DNA from: a virus
DNA length: 22,343 bases
Reading direction: 5' to 3' (one strand)
Virus record (IMG/VR): IMGVR_UViG_3300020200_001516
Span: 1-22,343 of that record
Both the position numbers and the translations under genes were made by a program. The notes below the pieces were generated by a model. That model worked only from the letters and a program-made list of their open reading frames with translations. It made no database searches and had not been told where the DNA came from. Positions 1 to 19,913 of the stretch are shown one piece after another (position 1 is the first letter of the stretch; each line of letters starts with the position of its first letter).

Positions 1-427
1 TCCAAGGACGCATACCCAGACGGTAGGAGAGTTCCCACTCACGACCCATATAAGCATAGATGCCGATGAGGAAGTGGAAGATCACCAGTTGGAAAGGTCC
101 ACCGTTGTATAGCCACTCATCCAGAGAGGCAGCTTCCCAGATGGGATAGAAGTGAAGTCCAATCGCGTTGGAAGACGGAATCACAGCACCAGAGATGATG
201 TTGTTACCGTACAGAAGAGAACCAGCGACTGGTTCACGGATACCATCGATGTCCACGGGAGGAGCAGCGATAAATGCAACGATGAAGCAAATTGTTGCGG
301 CAAGCAGAGTAGGAATCATCAGAACGCCGAACCAACCCACATAGAGACGGTTTTCGGTGCTGGTGATCCAACTGCAGAATTGATCCCAAGTATTCAGTTG
401 TCTTTGTTGTGCAATAGTAGCAGTCAT
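1..427 (-). CDS. psbA: Photosystem II D1 protein, 5' part (gene runs off the left edge)
   Basis: D1 is the photosystem II reaction-centre core subunit that turns over fastest under light. Phage copies replace host D1 so that photosynthesis continues during infection (established for cyanophages). Reading the minus strand from the ATG at 427 gives about 142 codons with no stop before the window edge. Recognisable D1 segments follow in order: [20 protein letters not shown], then [20 protein letters not shown], then [20 protein letters not shown], and finally [16 protein letters not shown] at the edge, where the second transmembrane helix would follow. The visible part is uninterrupted: no intron or frameshift. 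Codon use is host-like (many CTG, GGT and ATC codons), unlike the AT-rich halogenase upstream. A leader of about 160 bases separates it from the hybrid promoter at 590-623. The identity is very secure; the 3' two-thirds lies outside the window. Confidence 0.98.
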
Positions 428-589
428 TTGTTTGAAAAGTTAGTAAGACCATCAGGGAAATGGTGGTTCGTACTATGCTCCCCCCACCCTCAAGGGGGAT
501 ATGAGAGACGTTCTTAGACACCCATAGGTCTCGGTTAGCGGGTGTGTACAATGTTAGGAAATCCTTAAATCCCTTTACATTTGTTTACC

Positions 590-623
590 TATTTATCATA
601 CTACAATTTTGTCGCCATGGCAA
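590..623 (-). promoter_or_regulatory. psbA promoter: sigma70-like -35/-10 fused to a T4-type late motif
   Basis: On the minus strand the sequence reads TTGCCA (618-623), a 17-base spacer, then TATGAT (595-600), running straight into GATAAATA (590-597). The hexamers match the sigma70 consensus at 5/6 each. GATAAATA fits the NATAAATA late motif of T4-like cyanophages. The -35 begins one base after the halogenase stop codon. The leader down to the psbA ATG is about 160 bases and contains one weak 6-bp C/G-rich hairpin (479-499) with no other visible gene. The presence of both promoter types on the same bases is read directly; use both early and late is inferred. Confidence 0.75.
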
Positions 624-624
624 G

Positions 625-2112
625 TCAGATAAAAACCTTCTCGTCCCTTACCAGTTCAACGTAATCTAAATGATGCATAGTCTCAGCTTCTCGTTCTCTC
701 AAAAGAAAAGGAACTTCTGTAGTGTAAGTTTCCCAAGAAACGTTTCTTCCGGCCAATGTCTGTTGGAAAATGTAGGGAGGCAATCCATAATAATCCCAGT
801 ACTCTTTACTATGGAGATGCGAATAGATGTCATCATAGTGATCAGATTCCAGTGATGTATAATCTCTCCAAAATTTAGTATCTCTTCTATGACAATTTTT
901 ATACTGAGCAAATACAAAAGAAGACCAGAATTCATAAAATACGGATACCTTTCTATTCTGTCTTTTTATAATACTATTCCATTCATGATTTGGATTATGA
1001 ACTCCATTCATAATGTGTTTTCTATTAGGATACTCATCCAAATATTCCAAAAGATCCAATATGTTCATAGAAGTAACTGATAATCCTGGTGCATCCAAAG
1101 GTTCCATAAATCCATTTGCCATACCAATGGTAATACTATTGGGTTTAAGAGTGTGAGCACTATACCTAGGAATAAAATCAACTACATTAGGCACAATACT
1201 AGGATCTCCAATATCATTCACAAATTCTTTGATGGCATCTTCATCAGAAATGTACTTTGTACTAAAGACATACCCAGTACCAATCCTAGAATAAGTTGGT
1301 GTTATCCACCTCCACCCACAGTTCATTGTCTTTGCAACTGTATATGGGTGGAATTGTTTTTTCTTATCGGAAAACTCTAGTGGATAAAAAAGAGCTCTGT
1401 CCGTTAATAGTCTATCTGATAATGAAATGTATTTTTCCTTAAATACTTTCTCATTAATATCAGAACCACCAGTAGAATTAATGTAAAAATCTGCGGTTAA
1501 TTCTACACCAGATTCTAAAATTACTTTGGATATGACTTCAATATTATTTTCTATTTTAAACTGACAGTCAACAACAGTATCGACAATAAAATTTATCTTT
1601 GAATTTTTTTTATGAAGGTTGGTAATGTAAGAGATATATTTTCCAGCATCAAAGTGCCAGGAGGTTGGATAATCCGTATCCTGATACAATTTTCTATCTA
1701 ATACGACATGATGTTTTTCTGCATATTCAAACATCTTCTTAGCACAGATGTCATGAACATGAATATTTTTTGGCAAATTACCAAGAATTAAATTGTAGTC
1801 CCACAAACTTATTCCATTGGTTTCTGTTTGCCATCTAGATTTGAAATAATTTATCCATCCCTTTCCAAGATTCCAATTCTCATAATACACACCATATTTG
1901 AGAGCCCCATCAATCTCCCTTACCATTTCGGAGTAATCTTCTACAAAAATTCTATTTGTTTCTTCAAAATTTAATGTAGTAGACTCCCCTACTCCTATAG
2001 TAGGTATTCGTGACGATCCAATCAGAGTTACCTTTGTTACATATTCTCTGGATGCAAACACTCCTGCGGCCATTAGTCCCGCAGTTCCTGTTCCTATAAT
2101 GCATATATGCAT
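625..2112 (-). CDS. prnA: Flavin-dependent tryptophan-halogenase-like protein
   Basis: The 495-residue length is close to the usual 500-540 of PrnA/RebH-type enzymes. These use FADH2, O2 and chloride or bromide to make HOCl, which is passed to a catalytic lysine. Visible motifs in order: the Rossmann FAD site GTGTAG at residues 7-12; the family signature PTIGVGEST at 37-45; a lysine at 72 in a GALKYG context where PrnA has its catalytic Lys79; GWRWITP at 266-272 matching GWxWxIP (I to T); and FMEPL with Glu337 where PrnA has Glu346. So the catalytic set appears intact. The substrate cannot be read; free tryptophan is only the family default. The ATG follows directly after a terminator T-run and has no Shine-Dalgarno. 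Codons are more AT-rich than in psbA, suggesting separate acquisition. It lies between hli and psbA, whose -35 starts just past its stop. Halogenases of this type occur in several cyanomyoviruses. Confidence 0.9.
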   Translation of the reverse strand: MHICIIGTGTAGLMAAGVFASREYVTKVTLIGSSRIPTIGVGESTTLNFEETNRIFVEDYSEMVREIDGALKYGVYYENWNLGKGWINYFKSRWQTETNGISLWDYNLILGNLPKNIHVHDICAKKMFEYAEKHHVVLDRKLYQDTDYPTSWHFDAGKYISYITNLHKKNSKINFIVDTVVDCQFKIENNIEVISKVILESGVELTADFYINSTGGSDINEKVFKEKYISLSDRLLTDRALFYPLEFSDKKKQFHPYTVAKTMNCGWRWITPTYSRIGTGYVFSTKYISDEDAIKEFVNDIGDPSIVPNVVDFIPRYSAHTLKPNSITIGMANGFMEPLDAPGLSVTSMNILDLLEYLDEYPNRKHIMNGVHNPNHEWNSIIKRQNRKVSVFYEFWSSFVFAQYKNCHRRDTKFWRDYTSLESDHYDDIYSHLHSKEYWDYYGLPPYIFQQTLAGRNVSWETYTTEVPFLLREREAETMHHLDYVELVRDEKVFI

Positions 2113-4424: not shown

Positions 4425-4784
4425 TCAGAAGGAATACTTCACACCTGCTTTCACATTACTGGTCAGTTTATCACCAGTCAGGAAGTAGTATTCACCGTAG
4501 ACGCTAACACGTTCTGCAGCAGCAACGGTAGCACCAACCTTACCAGACACTTTAGTCTTTGCACTACCACCATCGGGAGTGAGCAGAGCAGGACCAACTT
4601 GAGCATAACCACTAACGGTATCGCTCAGAGCAAAATCATAACCAACGTGTGCTTCGGTGACTGTGCCAGTGTAGTTAGAGCCAGTAAGACCAGCATTAGC
4701 TTCTACATTTACATAAGGGCCAGCGAACGCAGCGGTGGCAAGGAAAGGTGCAGCTGCAACAGCTGCGATTGCGGATTTAAACAT
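4425..4784 (-). CDS. Exported outer-membrane-type beta-barrel protein
   Basis: A 119-residue protein with a classical Sec signal peptide: MFKSAIAAVAAAPFLATAAF, then A, with cleavage expected after AFA (residue 21). The mature part is alternating beta strands (GPYVNVEANAG, EAHVGYDFALS, SGYAQVGPALL, VSGKVGATVAA, VSVYGEYYFLT, NVKAGVKYSF) and ends in Phe, the usual last residue recognised for outer-membrane insertion. About eight strands fit a small OmpA/OmpX-like barrel. The protein would act in the host cell envelope. Its job is unknown (surface exclusion, receptor masking or permeability are guesses). The start has an AGAGG Shine-Dalgarno. It forms its own unit: hybrid promoter at 4893-4926, about 110-base structured leader, terminator at 4375-4400. 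Similar proteins occur in other cyanophages as I recall; not checked. Confidence 0.82.
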   Translation of the reverse strand: MFKSAIAAVAAAPFLATAAFAGPYVNVEANAGLTGSNYTGTVTEAHVGYDFALSDTVSGYAQVGPALLTPDGGSAKTKVSGKVGATVAAAERVSVYGEYYFLTGDKLTSNVKAGVKYSF

Positions 4785-4892: not shown

Positions 4893-4926
4893 TATTTATT
4901 GTAACATATTACTATGATTATGTCAA
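4893..4926 (-). promoter_or_regulatory. Promoter of the beta-barrel gene: sigma70 plus late motif fused
   Basis: Minus strand: TTGACA (4921-4926), 17-base spacer, TACAAT (4898-4903; 5/6), overlapping AATAAATA (4893-4900), a T4-type late motif. The -35 lies about 20 bases beyond the stop of the glycan operon's last gene (4945), with no terminator between them, so read-through may also contribute. Confidence 0.78.
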
Positions 4927-9193: not shown

Positions 9194-10341
9194 AGATCAA
9201 TCCTCCAATATTTCTCATGAATTTCAGTTTCGTTTACCACAAAAATAACTTTGTCATTATAAAGATCATACAAATAATCTTCATACTGTTTTATGACATC
9301 ATCTATTTCTTGTACATATACAGTATACCCTTTTTTTAGCAAATCTTCAACTAATCGAAGTCTTGGACTTTCGACAACCATATCGGACCCTTTCTTGAAA
9401 GCAATACTTTCAATAAAGAATGGAAGATTATCTACGTTTTCTTCTACACAATAGTTTGCAATGAAGTCTGCGTGAGCGTCATTAAAGGTATCGGTGACAT
9501 TGGGAAGACTATACTTAAGACCTAGGATATTAGCATAGTGTCCTAATGCACGGTTATCTCGGGGCAAACATGGACCACCGAAACCCAACCCGTAACGTAA
9601 ATATTTAGGACCAATTCTAGAGTCGTCCCCAACTGCCTTCAATACATTAGAAATCTGATCACCACAACCAGCGGAATATAAAATTTGGCCCATCATGTTA
9701 GCATAACTAATTTTATATGTCAGAAAACAATTGACTCCGATTTTAGTAATTTCGGCAGCCGTACGAGACATGGGATAAAAACTGATGGGTACAGATTGAA
9801 TACCATCATATATTGAAGATAGTTTTTCAAATCCTTCAGAGTCCGAACCACCACAAAGGATCATATCTGCAGTACGCATGTCATCAATGATGGATCCTTG
9901 AGCAATAAACTCTGGATTATAATATACTCTACATCCTCTACTTAAAAGTCTTTCTTGTACTGTATCACTATATCCAGGGTTTACGGTGCATCCTATTACA
10001 AAAATTTTGTCTTCAATAGAAGGAAAATCCAGAAGATCCTCCACTACAGATTCTACATATTGAACATCATAACTACCATCTTCTAATGATGGAGTTGGAA
10101 CAAAAGTAAAAATAATATCAGAATTACGAATGACTTCTCTATTGTTAGTAGTTGCTCTTAGATTTTCAGATCGCATTAAAAGATCTTCAACTTCTGGTTC
10201 ATTAGTATAAATTTCTTTATTAATTAAGTCTTTGATATAATTTTTGTTTATATCAGAAACAATTACATCGTGGCCAGATTCCTCACACAACAATGCAAAA
10301 CAAATACCTAATCTACCAGCGCCAATAACTCCGATTTTCAT
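9190..10341 (-). CDS. UDP-glucose/GDP-mannose dehydrogenase family protein, UDP-glucose 6-dehydrogenase-like
   Basis: This family oxidises the C6 hydroxyl of a nucleotide sugar to a carboxylate with two NAD+, for example UDP-glucose to UDP-glucuronate. The 383-residue frame has the N-terminal NAD site GVIGAGRLG (4-12), the central FVPTPS, VNPG and YNPEFIAQGS segments, a KxGxN active-site helix (Lys200, Asn204), and the catalytic cysteine in YGLGFGGPCLPRDN (Cys258). The ATG at 10341 lies in TGATG at the NAD synthetase stop with GAGGA before it; I prefer it to the TTG at 10344. The C-terminal UDP-binding domain is somewhat short but present. UDP-Glc versus GDP-Man cannot be settled by eye. Confidence 0.9.
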   Translation of the reverse strand: MKIGVIGAGRLGICFALLCEESGHDVIVSDINKNYIKDLINKEIYTNEPEVEDLLMRSENLRATTNNREVIRNSDIIFTFVPTPSLEDGSYDVQYVESVVEDLLDFPSIEDKIFVIGCTVNPGYSDTVQERLLSRGCRVYYNPEFIAQGSIIDDMRTADMILCGGSDSEGFEKLSSIYDGIQSVPISFYPMSRTAAEITKIGVNCFLTYKISYANMMGQILYSAGCGDQISNVLKAVGDDSRIGPKYLRYGLGFGGPCLPRDNRALGHYANILGLKYSLPNVTDTFNDAHADFIANYCVEENVDNLPFFIESIAFKKGSDMVVESPRLRLVEDLLKKGYTVYVQEIDDVIKQYEDYLYDLYNDKVIFVVNETEIHEKYWRIDL

Positions 10342-13719: not shown

Positions 13720-14307
13720 TCAAACCAAGCTAATTACATGTTTTGAGCCAAAGTTAACTAAACCAGTCCCACTCATATGACCAACTTCGGTAACATCAAG
13801 TTTAGGTTCTGAAATTGAATTCCACATATCTTCAACTTCTGGCCAAGCAGGGCCAATATCATCGAGGAGAATAATTCCTTTCCAATTTTTATCTTCAAGA
13901 AATTCCATCATTTCAACTTCTTGCACACCATCATGTGGATCAACATCAATCATGATCATTGAGACTTTATCCCAGTCCAGGGAATCATCTTCTCGAAAAT
14001 CTTGAATTTTCCACTCAATATTATCTTTCTGAATTTGACTTGCACCTTGTTCAACTAGATCATAACTAATGACTTTGTTGGTAGGGTTATGTGAAAGAGC
14101 AAGAGCAGATCCACCAACTCTAGTTCCAACGTCAAGAATACACGACTCATTAAAGAATGTAGAAAGGTATGCATACAGACGATACTCACTTTGCCCTGCA
14201 GAAAGCCAATCGTTTGGGTTAAGTGATTGACTTTCTAGTGCAGATACATCCAGAGCAATTACATCATTCTTATTAATTTTAATTGTTTTTTTAGTTACCT
14301 TACGCAT
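13720..14307 (-). CDS. Class I SAM-dependent methyltransferase-like protein
   Basis: 195 residues with motif I CILDVGTRVGGSALAL (56-71), then a strand-2 acidic end (KVISYDLVEQG), VSMIMIDVDPHDGVQEVEMM and GIILLDDIGPAWPEVEDMWN. The DPHDG and DDI elements resemble metal-using small-molecule O-methyltransferases of the Methyltransf_24 type. It lies directly before the SDR and overlaps the GDP-mannose epimerase gene by 8 bases, with AAGGA before its ATG. Probably decorates a nucleotide sugar or the glycan; a role on protein is possible. Family firm, substrate open. Confidence 0.75.
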   Translation of the reverse strand: MRKVTKKTIKINKNDVIALDVSALESQSLNPNDWLSAGQSEYRLYAYLSTFFNESCILDVGTRVGGSALALSHNPTNKVISYDLVEQGASQIQKDNIEWKIQDFREDDSLDWDKVSMIMIDVDPHDGVQEVEMMEFLEDKNWKGIILLDDIGPAWPEVEDMWNSISEPKLDVTEVGHMSGTGLVNFGSKHVISLV

Positions 14308-15349
14308 TGATCAGTTCCTTTACTTCAGTATTACTATTTGTACGAGAATTAATTTGTTCAGAGATCCAATTATAAGTCCTGCGGATACCCTCTTCTAAAG
14401 TCTGAGAATAATCCCAACCAAGTTCTCTACGAACTACGTCGTTGTTAGAGTTGCGACCACGAACTCCAAGAGGAGCATCAAGTTTATGTTTTCTATATAC
14501 TTCCTTATTAGACACTCTTGCCGCAGTTTCTACAAGTTGATTGATAGTGACCATTTCTTCGGAACCAATATTTACGGGTCCAATAAAATTAGAATCCATC
14601 AGTCTGCGGGTTGCTTCGATGCATTCATCAATGTACAAGAAGGAACGAGTCTGCAAACCGTCTCCCCACACCTCTATGGTTCCGCCTTCCTCTGGAAGGT
14701 ATGCTACTTTGCGGCAGATTGCTGCGGGTGCTTTTTCTCTACCACCTTCCCAGGTTCCCTCTGGTCCGAAAATATTATGATATCTAGCAACACGTACAGG
14801 GATGCCATAGTTACGATGATAAGCAAAGTAGAGACGTTCCGAGAACAATTTTTCCCAACCATATTCAGAATCTGGGTTGGCTGGATAAGCGGATTCTTCA
14901 CGGCAATCTGGATTATCAGGATCTAGTTGATTATGTTCTGGATACATACATGCAGACCCAGAATAGAAAATTTTAGTAGAAGTAGTACCTAGTTTTTCAT
15001 TTATATTACGTTGCAGTTCAAGAACATTCAGATTAATCTGAACTGAATTATGCATAATGTCTGCATCATTTTCGCCAGTAAAGACAAACCCAGCACCGCC
15101 CATATCAGCAGCAAACTGATATATTTCATCAAAGGGACGGCCTTCTTTATCAAGTAACATATTATGAACGACATCATAATGACGGAGATCTCCTCTGAAA
15201 AATTCGTCTGCTTCTGATGGAGAAAACTCTGGACGTTTTAGGTCTACACCACGGACCCAATACCCCTCAGATTTCAATCTTTTTACCATATGACTTCCAA
15301 TAAAGCCACCTGCACCTAAAACCAATGCAGTTTTTTTAAATCCAGACAT
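14300..15349 (-). CDS. gme: GDP-mannose 3,5-epimerase-like enzyme (to GDP-L-galactose)
   Basis: 349 residues, extended SDR. NAD site LVLGAGGFIGSHMVKRL (9-25). It carries the distinctive GME blocks seen in plant enzymes: AADMGGAGFV, SGSACMYPEHNQL, the SEYGWEKL helix, YHNIFGPEGTWEGGREKAPA, VWGDGLQTRSFLYIDECIEA, VNIGSEEMVTINQL and GVRGRNSNN. Catalytic residues fall at Cys134, Tyr163, Lys167 and Lys206; the spacings (29, 33 and 72 from the Cys) equal those of plant Cys145, Tyr174, Lys178 and Lys217. So GDP-D-mannose to GDP-L-galactose (and some L-gulose) is the likely reaction. It is the first gene of the glycan operon, about 30 bases from the hybrid promoter. Host GDP-mannose would feed it. Confidence 0.9.
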   Translation of the reverse strand: MSGFKKTALVLGAGGFIGSHMVKRLKSEGYWVRGVDLKRPEFSPSEADEFFRGDLRHYDVVHNMLLDKEGRPFDEIYQFAADMGGAGFVFTGENDADIMHNSVQINLNVLELQRNINEKLGTTSTKIFYSGSACMYPEHNQLDPDNPDCREESAYPANPDSEYGWEKLFSERLYFAYHRNYGIPVRVARYHNIFGPEGTWEGGREKAPAAICRKVAYLPEEGGTIEVWGDGLQTRSFLYIDECIEATRRLMDSNFIGPVNIGSEEMVTINQLVETAARVSNKEVYRKHKLDAPLGVRGRNSNNDVVRRELGWDYSQTLEEGIRRTYNWISEQINSRTNSNTEVKELINA

Positions 15350-15376: not shown

Positions 15377-15410
15377 TATTTATTCTACCAAAAAACGGTC
15401 ATATTCGCAA
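15377..15410 (-). promoter_or_regulatory. Promoter of the glycan operon: weak sigma70 fused to late motif
   Basis: Minus strand: TTGCGA (15405-15410; 4/6), 17-base spacer, TAGAAT (15382-15387; 5/6), overlapping AATAAATA (15377-15384), a T4-type late motif. It lies in the 73-base gap between the 2OG-oxygenase stop and the epimerase ATG (15349). The late motif is the stronger part; the -35 is poor, so late use is more likely here. Confidence 0.7.
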
Positions 15411-16040: not shown

Positions 16041-16111
16041 ACTACACTCCAGGCTCGCCACTTAGTTTTTACTGAACTAAGAAACAGGCGGGAGTTACCC
16101 CATCCGCACCA

Positions 16112-16132
16112 CCAGTTTTTGAGAGAAACTGG
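16112..16132 (-). repeat. Perfect 7-bp hairpin in the gap between two oxygenase genes
   Basis: CCAGTTT and AAACTGG arms (16112-16118, 16126-16132) with a 7-base loop. It lies in the 125-base gap 16041-16165, which has no gene I can support and no sigma70 or late promoter. There is no T-run, so this is not a standard terminator; an RNA-processing or pausing site is possible. Confidence 0.5.
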
Positions 16133-16147
16133 AAACTCATTGAGGGG

Positions 16148-17582: not shown

Positions 17583-17583
17583 G

Positions 17584-17656
17584 TGCTCCTTGAGGGGATC
17601 GAACCCACCTCACATCGATTATGAGTCGATTGCTTTCACCAGATAGCTAAAGGAGC
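17584..17656 (-). tRNA. tRNA with CAT anticodon (Met, or Ile if lysidine-modified)
   Basis: 73 bases. Acceptor GCTCCTT/AAGGAGC is perfect and the discriminator is A; there is no encoded CCA. Anticodon stem ATCGA/TCGAT with loop CTCATAA gives CAT. The T-arm GTGGG/CCCTC has one U-U mismatch; the T-loop TTCGATC is standard. The D-stem has three pairs. CAT could be elongator Met or the Ile2 type that reads AUA after lysidine change. The anticodon arm (CGACTCATAATCG) looks like Ile2, but this is not decisive. Confidence 0.85.
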
Positions 17657-17657
17657 A

Positions 17658-17748
17658 TGGTACGAGTGCCTGGATTCGAACCAGGTCAAAGCCGCTAATC
17701 TGGCGGAAAGAGTTTATAAGACTCCTCTGACTACCAAGTCTCACTCGC
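17658..17748 (-). tRNA. Class II tRNA (long variable arm), anticodon probably TAT, encoded CCA
   Basis: 91 bases with CCA encoded. Acceptor GCGAGTG/CACTCGT (last pair G-U), discriminator A. T-arm CCTGG/CCAGG with loop TTCGAAT is perfect. Anticodon stem GGAGT/ACTCT with loop CTTATAA gives TAT by the U33 rule. The variable region is about 23 bases with a CCGC/GCGG stem, as in Leu, Ser or Tyr tRNAs. The D-arm is 4 bases shorter than normal (GACT-TGGT-AGTC). Acceptor and long arm look like tRNA-Leu, but the anticodon is not a Leu one. It is one base from the next tRNA. Confidence 0.7.
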
Positions 17749-17755
17749 ATGAAAA

Positions 17756-17992
17756 TCACGCACCTTCTTCGTGATCGGTATGAATACGTATGAGTTCTTC
17801 ATCCGAATCACTGGTCGGAGAATATGGAACGGCTATACCGTCTTCGATGATATCTTTGATTTGATCTTTATATGGAATTAAAACAACATCCTTTTTATCT
17901 GGAGTTGCAATATAAAAAGATTCTCCATTTTCAACTCTACTGAAGATTTCATCAAAGTTGCTTTCTAATTGTTCTAGAGTGATGTGTTCCAT
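17756..17992 (-). CDS. Phd/YefM-like antitoxin homologue without visible toxin
   Basis: 78 residues. The N-terminal half, MEHITLEQLESNFDEIFSRV then ENGESFYIATPDKKDVVLIP, follows the Phd/YefM pattern: a short beta strand, a helix ending in RVENGE, then a beta hairpin in which YIATPDKK stands where Phd proteins have ITRRGKP, and a final VLIPY. The C-terminal part is acidic, as expected for a toxin-binding tail. Phd-type proteins bind DNA as dimers and neutralise RelE/Doc/YoeB toxins. No toxin gene lies on either side; neighbours are tRNAs. It could counter a host toxin or act only as a repressor. No strong ribosome site. Confidence 0.65.
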   Translation of the reverse strand: MEHITLEQLESNFDEIFSRVENGESFYIATPDKKDVVLIPYKDQIKDIIEDGIAVPYSPTSDSDEELIRIHTDHEEGA

Positions 17993-18008
17993 AGTTGTTA
18001 TAAACTAA

Positions 18009-18082
18009 TCGGAGTGGCAGGATTTGAACCTGCGACATCCTGCTCCCAAAGCAGGCGGTCTACCAAGCTGACCTACACCCCG
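18009..18082 (-). tRNA. tRNA-Pro (TGG)
   Basis: 74 bases, acceptor CGGGGTG/CACTCCG with one G-U pair, D-arm GGTC/GACC, anticodon stem CCTGC/GCAGG with loop TTTGGGA (anticodon TGG), T-arm GCAGG/CCTGC perfect, discriminator A. No CCA is encoded. It sits between the antitoxin-like gene and the peroxiredoxin gene. Confidence 0.95.
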
Positions 18083-18098
18083 TTTGTTGATTTTACTA

Positions 18099-18614
18099 TT
18101 AGTGTTTTAGATAGGCAAGAAGTGTTTCTGGAGAAGAAAACTCATAAGGATCTTCTTCTGCATTTTCTTTTTTATTGTCTTCAACATGCCAAGAAGAAAT
18201 TACACCGTCGTCAACAACACATGCATATCTCCAAGAGCGCACACCAAATCCCAAATTTTCTTTAAGGACATCCATTCCAGCCCACTTAGTAAATACTGCA
18301 TTCCCATCGGGGATATATTTAACATTTTTAATTTTCAGTTCTTTAAACCAAGCATTCATTACAAATGAATCATTTACACTTAGACAATAGACTTCATCAA
18401 TTCCAAGTTTTTTAAATTTAGAATATGATTTCTCATATCCAGGAAGTTGTTTTGATGTACAAGTAGGAGTAAAAGCTCCAGGCAAAGCAAACACAACTAC
18501 TTTTTTTCCAGAAAAAATATCAGAAACATTTTTTGTTATCCATTCTCCATCTTCCCTGTAATTCCAAGAAATCCAACTAGGAATAATTCTAATGTTTGTA
18601 ATAGGACTAGGCAT
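18099..18614 (-). CDS. Peroxiredoxin of the Prx5 (AhpC/TSA) type
   Basis: 171 residues. Prx5 enzymes reduce hydrogen peroxide and alkyl hydroperoxides using a peroxidatic cysteine and thiol donors such as glutathione/glutaredoxin or thioredoxin. The active site is PGAFTPTCTSKQLPGY (45-60) with Cys52 in PxxxTxxC. The partner Arg126 is in GVRSWRYACVVDDG. There is no fused glutaredoxin domain, and Cys77 (VYCLSVND) is another cysteine of the fold. The protein is full length and acts in the cytosol. In an infected cell it could remove peroxide made by stressed photosynthesis, fitting the phage psbA and hli genes. It lies between tRNA-Pro and tRNA-Ser, read from the promoter at 18756-18784. Confidence 0.93.
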   Translation of the reverse strand: MPSPITNIRIIPSWISWNYREDGEWITKNVSDIFSGKKVVVFALPGAFTPTCTSKQLPGYEKSYSKFKKLGIDEVYCLSVNDSFVMNAWFKELKIKNVKYIPDGNAVFTKWAGMDVLKENLGFGVRSWRYACVVDDGVISSWHVEDNKKENAEEDPYEFSSPETLLAYLKH

Positions 18615-18660
18615 CGTGAATAGGATAATAATAGTTTATATATGTTCTTCAAGAGAAGAA

Positions 18661-18745
18661 CGGAAAGGGTAGGATTCGAACCAACGGATGCTTTCACATC
18701 GGCAGTTTTCAAGACTGCTGCCTTAAACCACTCGGCCACCTTTCC
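18661..18745 (-). tRNA. tRNA-Ser (TGA)
   Basis: 85 bases with a Ser-type long variable arm (GATG/CATC stem, 6-base loop). Acceptor GGAAAGG/CCTTTCC, anticodon stem GCAGT/ACTGC with loop CTTGAAA (TGA), and discriminator G as expected for Ser. The T-stem GTTGG/CCTAC has one U-U mismatch. No CCA is encoded. It starts about 4 bases after the predicted RNA start of the promoter just upstream. Confidence 0.94.
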
Positions 18746-18755
18746 AATACCAGTA

Positions 18756-18784
18756 ATCATAGGACATCTAATAAAAATTGTCAA
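18756..18784 (-). promoter_or_regulatory. Strong sigma70 promoter before tRNA-Ser and peroxiredoxin
   Basis: Minus strand: TTGACA (18779-18784), 17-base spacer, TATGAT (18756-18761; 5/6). The -35 overlaps the stop of the gene at 18781, so this promoter restarts transcription for tRNA-Ser, the peroxiredoxin, tRNA-Pro, the Phd-like gene and the two further tRNAs. No late motif. Confidence 0.82.
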
Positions 18785-18996
18785 GGATCACTTAAAGGAT
18801 GTCCATTACGCCAACGACTTGTATCTGGAGGATCACACTTTGCATCCCAAGATCGTACTAAAAGTTTTGTGAACAGTTCCATTTTGTCTGGATGAACTGC
18901 TGCTGGATTTTGATTGATTTGTTCCTTAAGTGCCACTAATTCATTCCATTCTTCATCTGTAAGCGCCGATTGTTCGGAGTTTGGGGAATGAGTCAT
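18781..18996 (-). CDS. Hypothetical 71-residue protein
   Basis: Family not recognised. An acidic helical N-terminal half (SEQSALTDEEWNELVALKEQ) is followed by AVHPDKMELFTKLLVRSWDA and a Pro/Asp/Trp-rich end (CDPPDTSRWRNGHPLSDP). No membrane segment. The ATG at 18996 shares a base with the stop of the zinc-ribbon gene (TAATG), so the two are coupled. Its stop codon overlaps the -35 of the promoter at 18756-18784. Confidence 0.75.
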   Translation of the reverse strand: MTHSPNSEQSALTDEEWNELVALKEQINQNPAAVHPDKMELFTKLLVRSWDAKCDPPDTSRWRNGHPLSDP

Positions 18997-19244
18997 TAAC
19001 GCACCTCGAAATCTAGTTTACGGACCTTTCTTTTTTTTCGGTCTTCTTGGTATTTTAGGTCATCTTTTGTCAGGATATCCTGATTTTTTAAATTTTCTTC
19101 ACATTTTATTAGAATAACTTTGCTAAGGTCCACAGCTACAACAGTATCATTAACCACTTGCATCATATTAGGACACCCACAACACTGGGGTTTAGAACTA
19201 CTTGTTAGTTCTTTATTGCAAACTTTACATCTTACGGTAAACAT
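18996..19244 (-). CDS. Small zinc-ribbon-like protein
   Basis: 82 residues. The start MFTVRCKVCNKELTSSSKPQ gives CxxC (Cys6, Cys9), then CCGC (Cys21, Cys22, Cys24), a four-cysteine metal site typical of a zinc ribbon. The rest is a hydrophobic strand (TVVAVDLSKVILIKCE) and a very basic helical tail (YQEDRKKRKVRKLDFEVR). Small zinc-ribbon proteins usually bind nucleic acid or protein; in phages they may change host transcription or translation, but nothing specific can be read. Four bases after the cupin gene. No clear Shine-Dalgarno. Confidence 0.75.
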   Translation of the reverse strand: MFTVRCKVCNKELTSSSKPQCCGCPNMMQVVNDTVVAVDLSKVILIKCEENLKNQDILTKDDLKYQEDRKKRKVRKLDFEVR

Positions 19245-19248
19245 TTTT

Positions 19249-19809
19249 TCAGGCCGTTAAATTTAGTGTTAATGATAATCTGGGTTCTGGAGCTTCTAAT
19301 ACAGCGTGTTGGGTATTTGATGGAAGGACAATGATATCCCCTGGGCCAATTTTTTGAACGGCATCCCCAATTAACCAAGTGCATACACCGTAAATTGGCT
19401 TTATAATTACATGATATTCGTGACTATGAGGCGGGAAACTAACTCTAGAGTTAGTATTTCCCTTCCCAATGTAGAAATTAGAAACAGTTCTAGACCCTTT
19501 GACTGCAAAGATTTTATCATCTAATTCTCTAAGTTCAGAGGTAACATCCATAATATCTGTAATGTGGGAAGTAAATCCCAAATCATAAAGATGTTTCCAT
19601 TTTATAAAATCCAAATAACCATCATTGGTATAGAATTCTACAGATCCTCTACCACATGCGTTAATAGTCTCAACTACTCCTCTGGGCCATCGATAACGAA
19701 TTTGAAGAAGATCTAATACTTTTTCTTCATCTAAGGAAATTGTATGATTTCCTATTATTTCTGATAAAGTATATAGATACGTTTCATCATTAATACTTTG
19801 TATTTCCAT
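19249..19809 (-). CDS. Cupin-domain protein
   Basis: 186 residues. The C-terminal half is a single cupin barrel. Motif 1 is SFPPHSHEYHVIIKPIYG (124-141), with His128 and His130 as metal ligands and His133 or Glu131 as a third. Motif 2 is GPGDIIVLPSNTQHAV (155-170), ending in the metal-binding His168. The N-terminal ~100 residues are less typical, with LLQIRYRWPRGVVETINACG. Cupins bind Fe, Mn or Zn and act as isomerases, dioxygenases, sugar-binding or regulatory modules; the fold does not decide. The gene stands just before tRNA-Val with no strong promoter between. Not obviously part of the glycan operon, although sugar isomerase is one possible role. Confidence 0.82.
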   Translation of the reverse strand: MEIQSINDETYLYTLSEIIGNHTISLDEEKVLDLLQIRYRWPRGVVETINACGRGSVEFYTNDGYLDFIKWKHLYDLGFTSHITDIMDVTSELRELDDKIFAVKGSRTVSNFYIGKGNTNSRVSFPPHSHEYHVIIKPIYGVCTWLIGDAVQKIGPGDIIVLPSNTQHAVLEAPEPRLSLTLNLTA

Positions 19810-19828
19810 ATTTTATTCTAAAAATAAA

Positions 19829-19900
19829 TGGGCGATACTGGAATCGAACCAGTGACTTACCACTTGTAAGGAGGCCACTCTACCGCTGAGTTAATCGCCC
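19829..19900 (-). tRNA. tRNA-Val (TAC)
   Basis: 72 bases. Acceptor GGGCGAT/ATCGCCC is perfect, D-arm ACTC/GAGT, T-arm ACTGG/CCAGT with loop TTCGATT, discriminator A, no CCA. Anticodon loop CTTACAA gives TAC. The anticodon stem GCCTC/GTGGT has a U-U mismatch in the middle and a G-U at its base, so it is weaker than usual. Confidence 0.9.
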
Positions 19901-19913
19901 AAGAAAAAGTTCT

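Follow-up and report, generated by a model that had tools for sequence, protein, structure and literature searches.

Superimposed sigma70-type and T4-type late promoter elements upstream of psbA, an outer-membrane barrel gene and a glycan epimerase gene in cyanomyoviruses

In a viral record of 22,343 bases, parts of which match Synechococcus T4-like cyanophages (the window, meaning the whole stretch of DNA analysed), a sigma70-type promoter overlaps a late motif of the T4 type in one register upstream of psbA, of an outer-membrane beta-barrel gene and of an epimerase gene that opens a glycan cluster. This overlap is not a product of chance. The layout, its fixed register, its enrichment, its conservation and its association with particular genes were observed directly, as were the short gp55 homologues of reference phages. 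Each of the three sites is probably a composite promoter, which would be read by the host sigma factor first and by the phage late sigma factor afterwards. Judged from the sequence, this reading is weakest at the epimerase gene, because the late half is found there only in a minority of relatives.

Promoter layout in the window

The minus strand from 15410 to 15377 reads TTGCGA-ATATGACCGTTTTTTGG-TAGAAT-AAATA, which bears out the preliminary description of a TTGCGA element 17 bases from a TAGAAT hexamer that shares bases with a late motif. The final AT of the -10 hexamer is the opening AT of ATAAATA. Compared with the sigma70 type (-35 near TTGACA, spacer of 16-18 bp, -10 of the form TANNNT), the site agrees at 9 of 12 positions and has an extended -10; its -35 is the weakest among the three sites of the window. 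By sequence, it also agrees with the T4-type late motif, (N)ATAAATA, which covers -13 to -6 in T4 (PMC1524935), the start at the epimerase site being a predicted one. The predicted starts lie at about 15375 for sigma70 and about 15371 for the late motif (Table 1).

Table 1. Coordinates of promoter elements and associated features in the window
Feature	Position	Strand	Remarks
-35-like hexamer TTGCGA, epimerase promoter	15405..15410	-	4/6 match to TTGACA
Extended -10 bases TGG	15388..15390	-	extended -10 T and G enriched in such promoters
-10 hexamer TAGAAT	15382..15387	-	sigma70-like promoter near the same position upstream of most relatives
Late motif AATAAATA	15377..15384	-	overlaps the -10 end; AAATA part is 15381-15377
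NAD-dependent epimerase/dehydratase	14300..15349	-	PF01370 2.1e-38; first gene after the promoter, opens the glycan cluster
psbA promoter, TTGCCA-N17-TATGATAAATA (-10 TATGAT)	590..623	-	same layout as the epimerase site
Barrel-gene promoter, TTGACA-N17-TACAATAAATA (-10 TACAAT)	4893..4926	-	same layout; seen in relatives too
psbA (D1 protein), truncated by the window end	2..427	-	
PhotoRC-II leader RNA, between promoter and psbA	465..556	-	RF01717, 66.5 bits
Cyanophage outer-membrane beta-barrel protein	4425..4784	-	PF24653 Phage_OMP 5.8e-40

The epimerase ATG lies 27 bases from the promoter (15377), and sugar and glycosyltransferase genes run on after the epimerase gene. A wcaG cis-regulatory RNA (RF01761, 82.6 bits; 16047-16140, minus strand) overlaps the start of a 2OG-Fe(II) oxygenase gene, which precedes the promoter and its cluster. 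Since this RNA and the oxygenase gene lie before it, the epimerase promoter probably lies within a longer unit. A wcaG RNA is also found near the epimerase promoter of phage Sf-FS3 (locus L800).

ATAAATA occurs exactly three times in the whole window, each time on the minus (coding) strand and within TANNATAAATA with TTGNNA at 17 bases. The design had been claimed for psbA and the barrel gene as well, and the geometry at both proved identical. The other strong promoters had been described as lacking the late motif; this holds at 3560-3532, 17582-17554 and 18784-18756, where the sigma70-like promoters are stronger than the hybrid sites. The only minus-strand CTAAATA of the window (9602-9608) is intragenic and out of this frame. 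ATAAATA is under-represented (3 copies versus 9.6 in dinucleotide shuffles), a scarcity that looks like avoidance of stray late motifs.

The order of promoter, PhotoRC-II and psbA is repeated in eight reference phages. The end of a tryptophan halogenase-like gene (625-2112, minus strand; PF04820, phrog_2928) adjoins the psbA promoter. The barrel-gene leader showed a folding signal that was no more than modest (z -2.1). Elsewhere in the window, five tRNA genes (Met, Ile, Pro, Ser and Val) stand among small genes at 17583-19901 (minus strand), and a gene for a Phd-like antitoxin (17756-17992, minus strand; phrog_375) lies amid them.

Register, gene association and conservation

Under the window's own composition, the joint chance of the layout is 8.5e-4 per site and about 6e-10 for three of three, a value that takes no account of the pattern having been picked after it was seen; the pattern was therefore tested on other phages. 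The comparison set had three groups of 80 viral loci, one for each of psbA, the epimerase and the barrel gene. Six complete cyanomyoviruses were also examined, and T4 and RB49 were included for comparison.

At the psbA loci, TTGA stands at the exact 17-bp register in 44 of 302 non-redundant ATAAATA sites, against 0-7 at other distances; at the barrel loci the corresponding counts are 16 of 162 and 0-6. Read in the other direction, TTGAC-N17-TANNAT is followed by AAATA in 38 of 286 cases and by words of the same composition (AATAA, ATAAA, TAAAA, AAAAT) in 0-3. A tandem arrangement of the elements was rejected, as the psbA and barrel loci show no peak at other offsets. Hybrid sites are enriched for the extended -10 TG, and the predicted sigma70 start is a purine in 84% of them.

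A scan of cyanophage genomes for the pattern, as proposed in the preliminary description, placed the register far above its controls. Among 18 complete cyanomyoviruses, 79 copies of TANNATAAATA were found, 20 of them with TTG at 17 bp, versus none for the reversed control pattern. All 20 sites precede a correctly oriented gene, namely psbA (11), a PF24653 gene (3), a member of the epimerase family (2), psbD, talC, gp32 and a small gene (1 each), the gp32 site being 245 nt ahead of its gene. The three families of the window thus rank first and account for 16 of the 20 sites. The identities of psbD and talC come from record annotation, and those of the barrel and epimerase genes were assigned from translated sequences. 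In an independent scan of IMG/VR, where the comparison was made on the genes downstream of the matches listed and not on pattern frequency, the exact pattern precedes psbA, gp32 or PF24653 in 22 of 81 matches listed, versus 3 of 81 (all gp32) for one control pattern and 0 of 80 for another.

A complete cyanophage genome carries about 40-60 copies of ATAAATA, nearly all on the coding strand, of which just 0-3 are in this frame; the hybrid kind makes up about 2% of late motifs. These whole-genome counts rejected the idea that all late motifs share the design. The observation that three of three late motifs in the window sit in the frame was therefore correct in not being due to chance, as the relatives confirm independently, but it is no general rule and reflects which genes the window holds. 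Two phages with complete genomes, S-SSM7 and Sf-FS3, show the layout at the epimerase gene; their -35 elements there are weak, like that of the epimerase site in the window. No in-frame site was found in the T4 genome. In RB49, the sole in-frame site is TTGCCT-N17-TATCATAAATA at 61542 (minus strand), before an 86-aa ORF.

Conservation differs among the three families. TTGAC-N17-TANNATAAATA occurs upstream of psbA in about three quarters of the 80 loci, some with an 18-bp spacer, and the spacer sequences are almost unrelated. Several psbA relatives without ATAAATA have TATACTAAATA instead; loss of the design in these phages was set aside, as TATACTAAATA pointed to a CTAAATA variant. The idea that phages took over the psbA promoter with the host gene was rejected, as none of the 28 host psbA genes checked has ATAAATA in its 260 upstream nt. 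At a similar distance from the start, some barrel relatives have a hybrid site (with diverged spacers), others just the sigma70 promoter and others again just the late motif, and the two halves are thus separable. At both the psbA and the barrel sites, the two elements occur upstream of the gene in one conserved register. The 58 non-redundant epimerase relatives comprise 8 hybrid, 37 sigma70-only and 2 late-only loci and 11 with neither, so that 37 of the 47 with any signal have a sigma70 promoter without the late motif. Their -10 is mostly followed by ATATA or ACATA and in a minority by AAATA; loci L142, L087 and L111 are examples of this A[T/C/A]ATA pattern. Because only this minority carries AAATA, the putative late half at the epimerase gene is less secure than that at psbA or the barrel gene. 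The AAATA there may be a genuine late motif that some phages acquired, or a variant of a conserved discriminator.

Motif variants were compared in the six cyanomyovirus genomes, against a baseline of about 6% non-coding sequence per genome. Of ATAAATA and its one-base variants, only ATAAATA (47% non-coding) and CTAAATA (38%) are strongly concentrated in non-coding DNA; ATATATA reaches 34% on few sites, and the remaining variants 4-23%. With its strong coding-strand bias, CTAAATA looks like a second late motif in cyanophages, and the late motif of Aeh1 resembles it (PMC1524935). The distribution of ATATATA is mildly late-like. The base shared by the two superimposed elements is A or C in 53 of 54 hybrids versus 331 of 407 other sigma70-like sites (Fisher p 7e-4). 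A second factor reading that base would be expected to restrict it in this way. No base bias is seen immediately upstream of ordinary late motifs.

A putative hand-over and its rivals

Use of the sites by both sigma factors, its timing and the starts themselves are what we infer from these patterns. Before late proteins are present, host RNA polymerase with SigA/sigma70 would read TTGNNA-N17-TANNAT. Later, gp55 together with gp33 and the gp45 clamp, on the same polymerase core, would read NATAAATA, a motif that shares the last bases of the -10 and reaches 5 bases past it. The two starts would be no more than about 4 bases apart, leaving the mRNA leader nearly unchanged while control passes from the host to the phage sigma factor; at psbA, the leader kept through the hand-over would be the PhotoRC-II RNA. 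One reason for superimposing the elements, instead of arranging them in tandem, may be that either start would leave the PhotoRC-II leader intact. The users would be genes wanted through most of the infection, encoding D1/D2, the outer-membrane barrel, sugar-coat enzymes and SSB.

Instead of a hand-over, the late holoenzyme itself could read the -35, giving a single stronger class of late promoter. The joint occurrence of the -35 and the late motif in fixed register would fit this, and yet it is the least probable of the readings considered, as nearly all late motifs lack a -35 and the gp55 homologues of the six reference cyanophages measure only 155-185 aa (T4 gp55, 185 aa), which leaves no room for a -35-reading domain. 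The late polymerase of T4 works without a domain equivalent to sigma4 (PMC2988020). Taken with the short gp55, this makes a host sigma factor the most likely reader of the -35. Scarcely more probable are pure late promoters with a chance or relict -35. The late motif does stand alone in some barrel relatives and the -35 at the epimerase gene is weak, but TTGAC is kept at one exact spacing in most psbA relatives despite their diverged spacers, the extended -10 bases are enriched in hybrids, and sigma70-only states exist among relatives.

A more substantial rival, though still an unlikely one, holds that the sites are pure sigma70 promoters in which AAATA is a favoured discriminator, or a preference of an alternative host sigma factor, and which gp55 does not use. 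The epimerase relatives, with A[T/C/A]ATA after the -10, speak for it. Outside that family, AAATA follows in 50 of 511 cases versus 4 for ATATA, 1 for ACATA and 2 for AATAA, and the shared base is held to A or C as in free late motifs. Late-only versions near the same position in barrel relatives also count against the pure sigma70 reading, as do the host sequences, where AAATA was absent from 35 sigma70-like sites and psbA lacked ATAAATA in the upstream regions checked. Host-like promoters of Syn9 were reportedly assigned to middle genes by Doron et al. in 2016. In P-HM2, whose psbA has a hybrid promoter, the metabolic genes carried by the phage were assigned to the middle cluster alone (PMC5082946), which favours the pure sigma70 reading; it argues for naming the sigma70 half "middle" and calls for caution about the late half. 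Of the term "hybrid early/late promoter" used in the preliminary description, the superposition of a sigma70-type promoter and a late motif in one register thus stands, but "early" is probably the wrong name.

Known systems and implications for cyanomyoviruses

An overlapping sigma70/gp55 promoter is already known as a kind from psbA. For the psbA of cyanomyoviruses, Puxty et al. 2018 (PMC5931967) describe sigma70 -35 and -10 elements whose -10 motif contains the gp55 site, and they infer expression both early and late; the sites reported here are alike in this respect. Their motif is reported for psbA alone, and the text searched does not mention a fixed register, a restriction of the shared base to A or C, or members at the barrel, epimerase, psbD, talC and gp32 genes. 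According to a 2010 review (PMC2984593), overlapping early and late promoters have been proposed for the middle genes of RB49 and for S-PM2; there too, genes of T4-like phages without MotA would carry both sigma70 and late elements. No fixed geometry is stated in the review, in contrast to the register found here, and a middle profile was not borne out by qPCR of a few S-PM2 genes (PMC2984593). The T4-type late promoter (TATAAATA; gp55, gp33, gp45) has the NATAAATA motif in common with these sites, and gp55 homologues are present in the six reference genomes; unlike in that promoter, a full sigma70 promoter (-35 plus extended -10) is superimposed here. The cis-regulatory RNAs PhotoRC-II (RF01717) and wcaG (RF01761) are markers of the same psbA and glycan neighbourhoods but are RNA leaders, not promoters, and the composite promoter of psbA stands upstream of PhotoRC-II. 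Neither the fixed register nor the genes other than psbA turned up in the literature searched, a search that did not extend to Doron et al. 2016. The recurrence of this kind of promoter is shown at the outer-membrane gene and, less certainly, at the sugar-coat gene.

More tentatively, and with the balance of probability somewhat against it, psbA, psbD, the outer-membrane barrel gene, the glycan epimerase gene, gp32 and talC may form a "bridge" regulon of cyanomyoviruses, in which one composite promoter would pass from SigA to gp55 with the leader unchanged, a MotA-less answer to the need for sustained expression. At base resolution, the composite-promoter reading predicts a pair of starts separated by about 4 bases, with the upstream start used first, which is testable in 5'-end time courses of Syn9, S-PM2 and P-HM2. 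If both halves work, a few metabolic and surface genes would be kept on from the host-dependent into the phage-dependent phase by about 34 bp of DNA. If this is true, the pattern could predict which cyanophage genes are expressed throughout infection.
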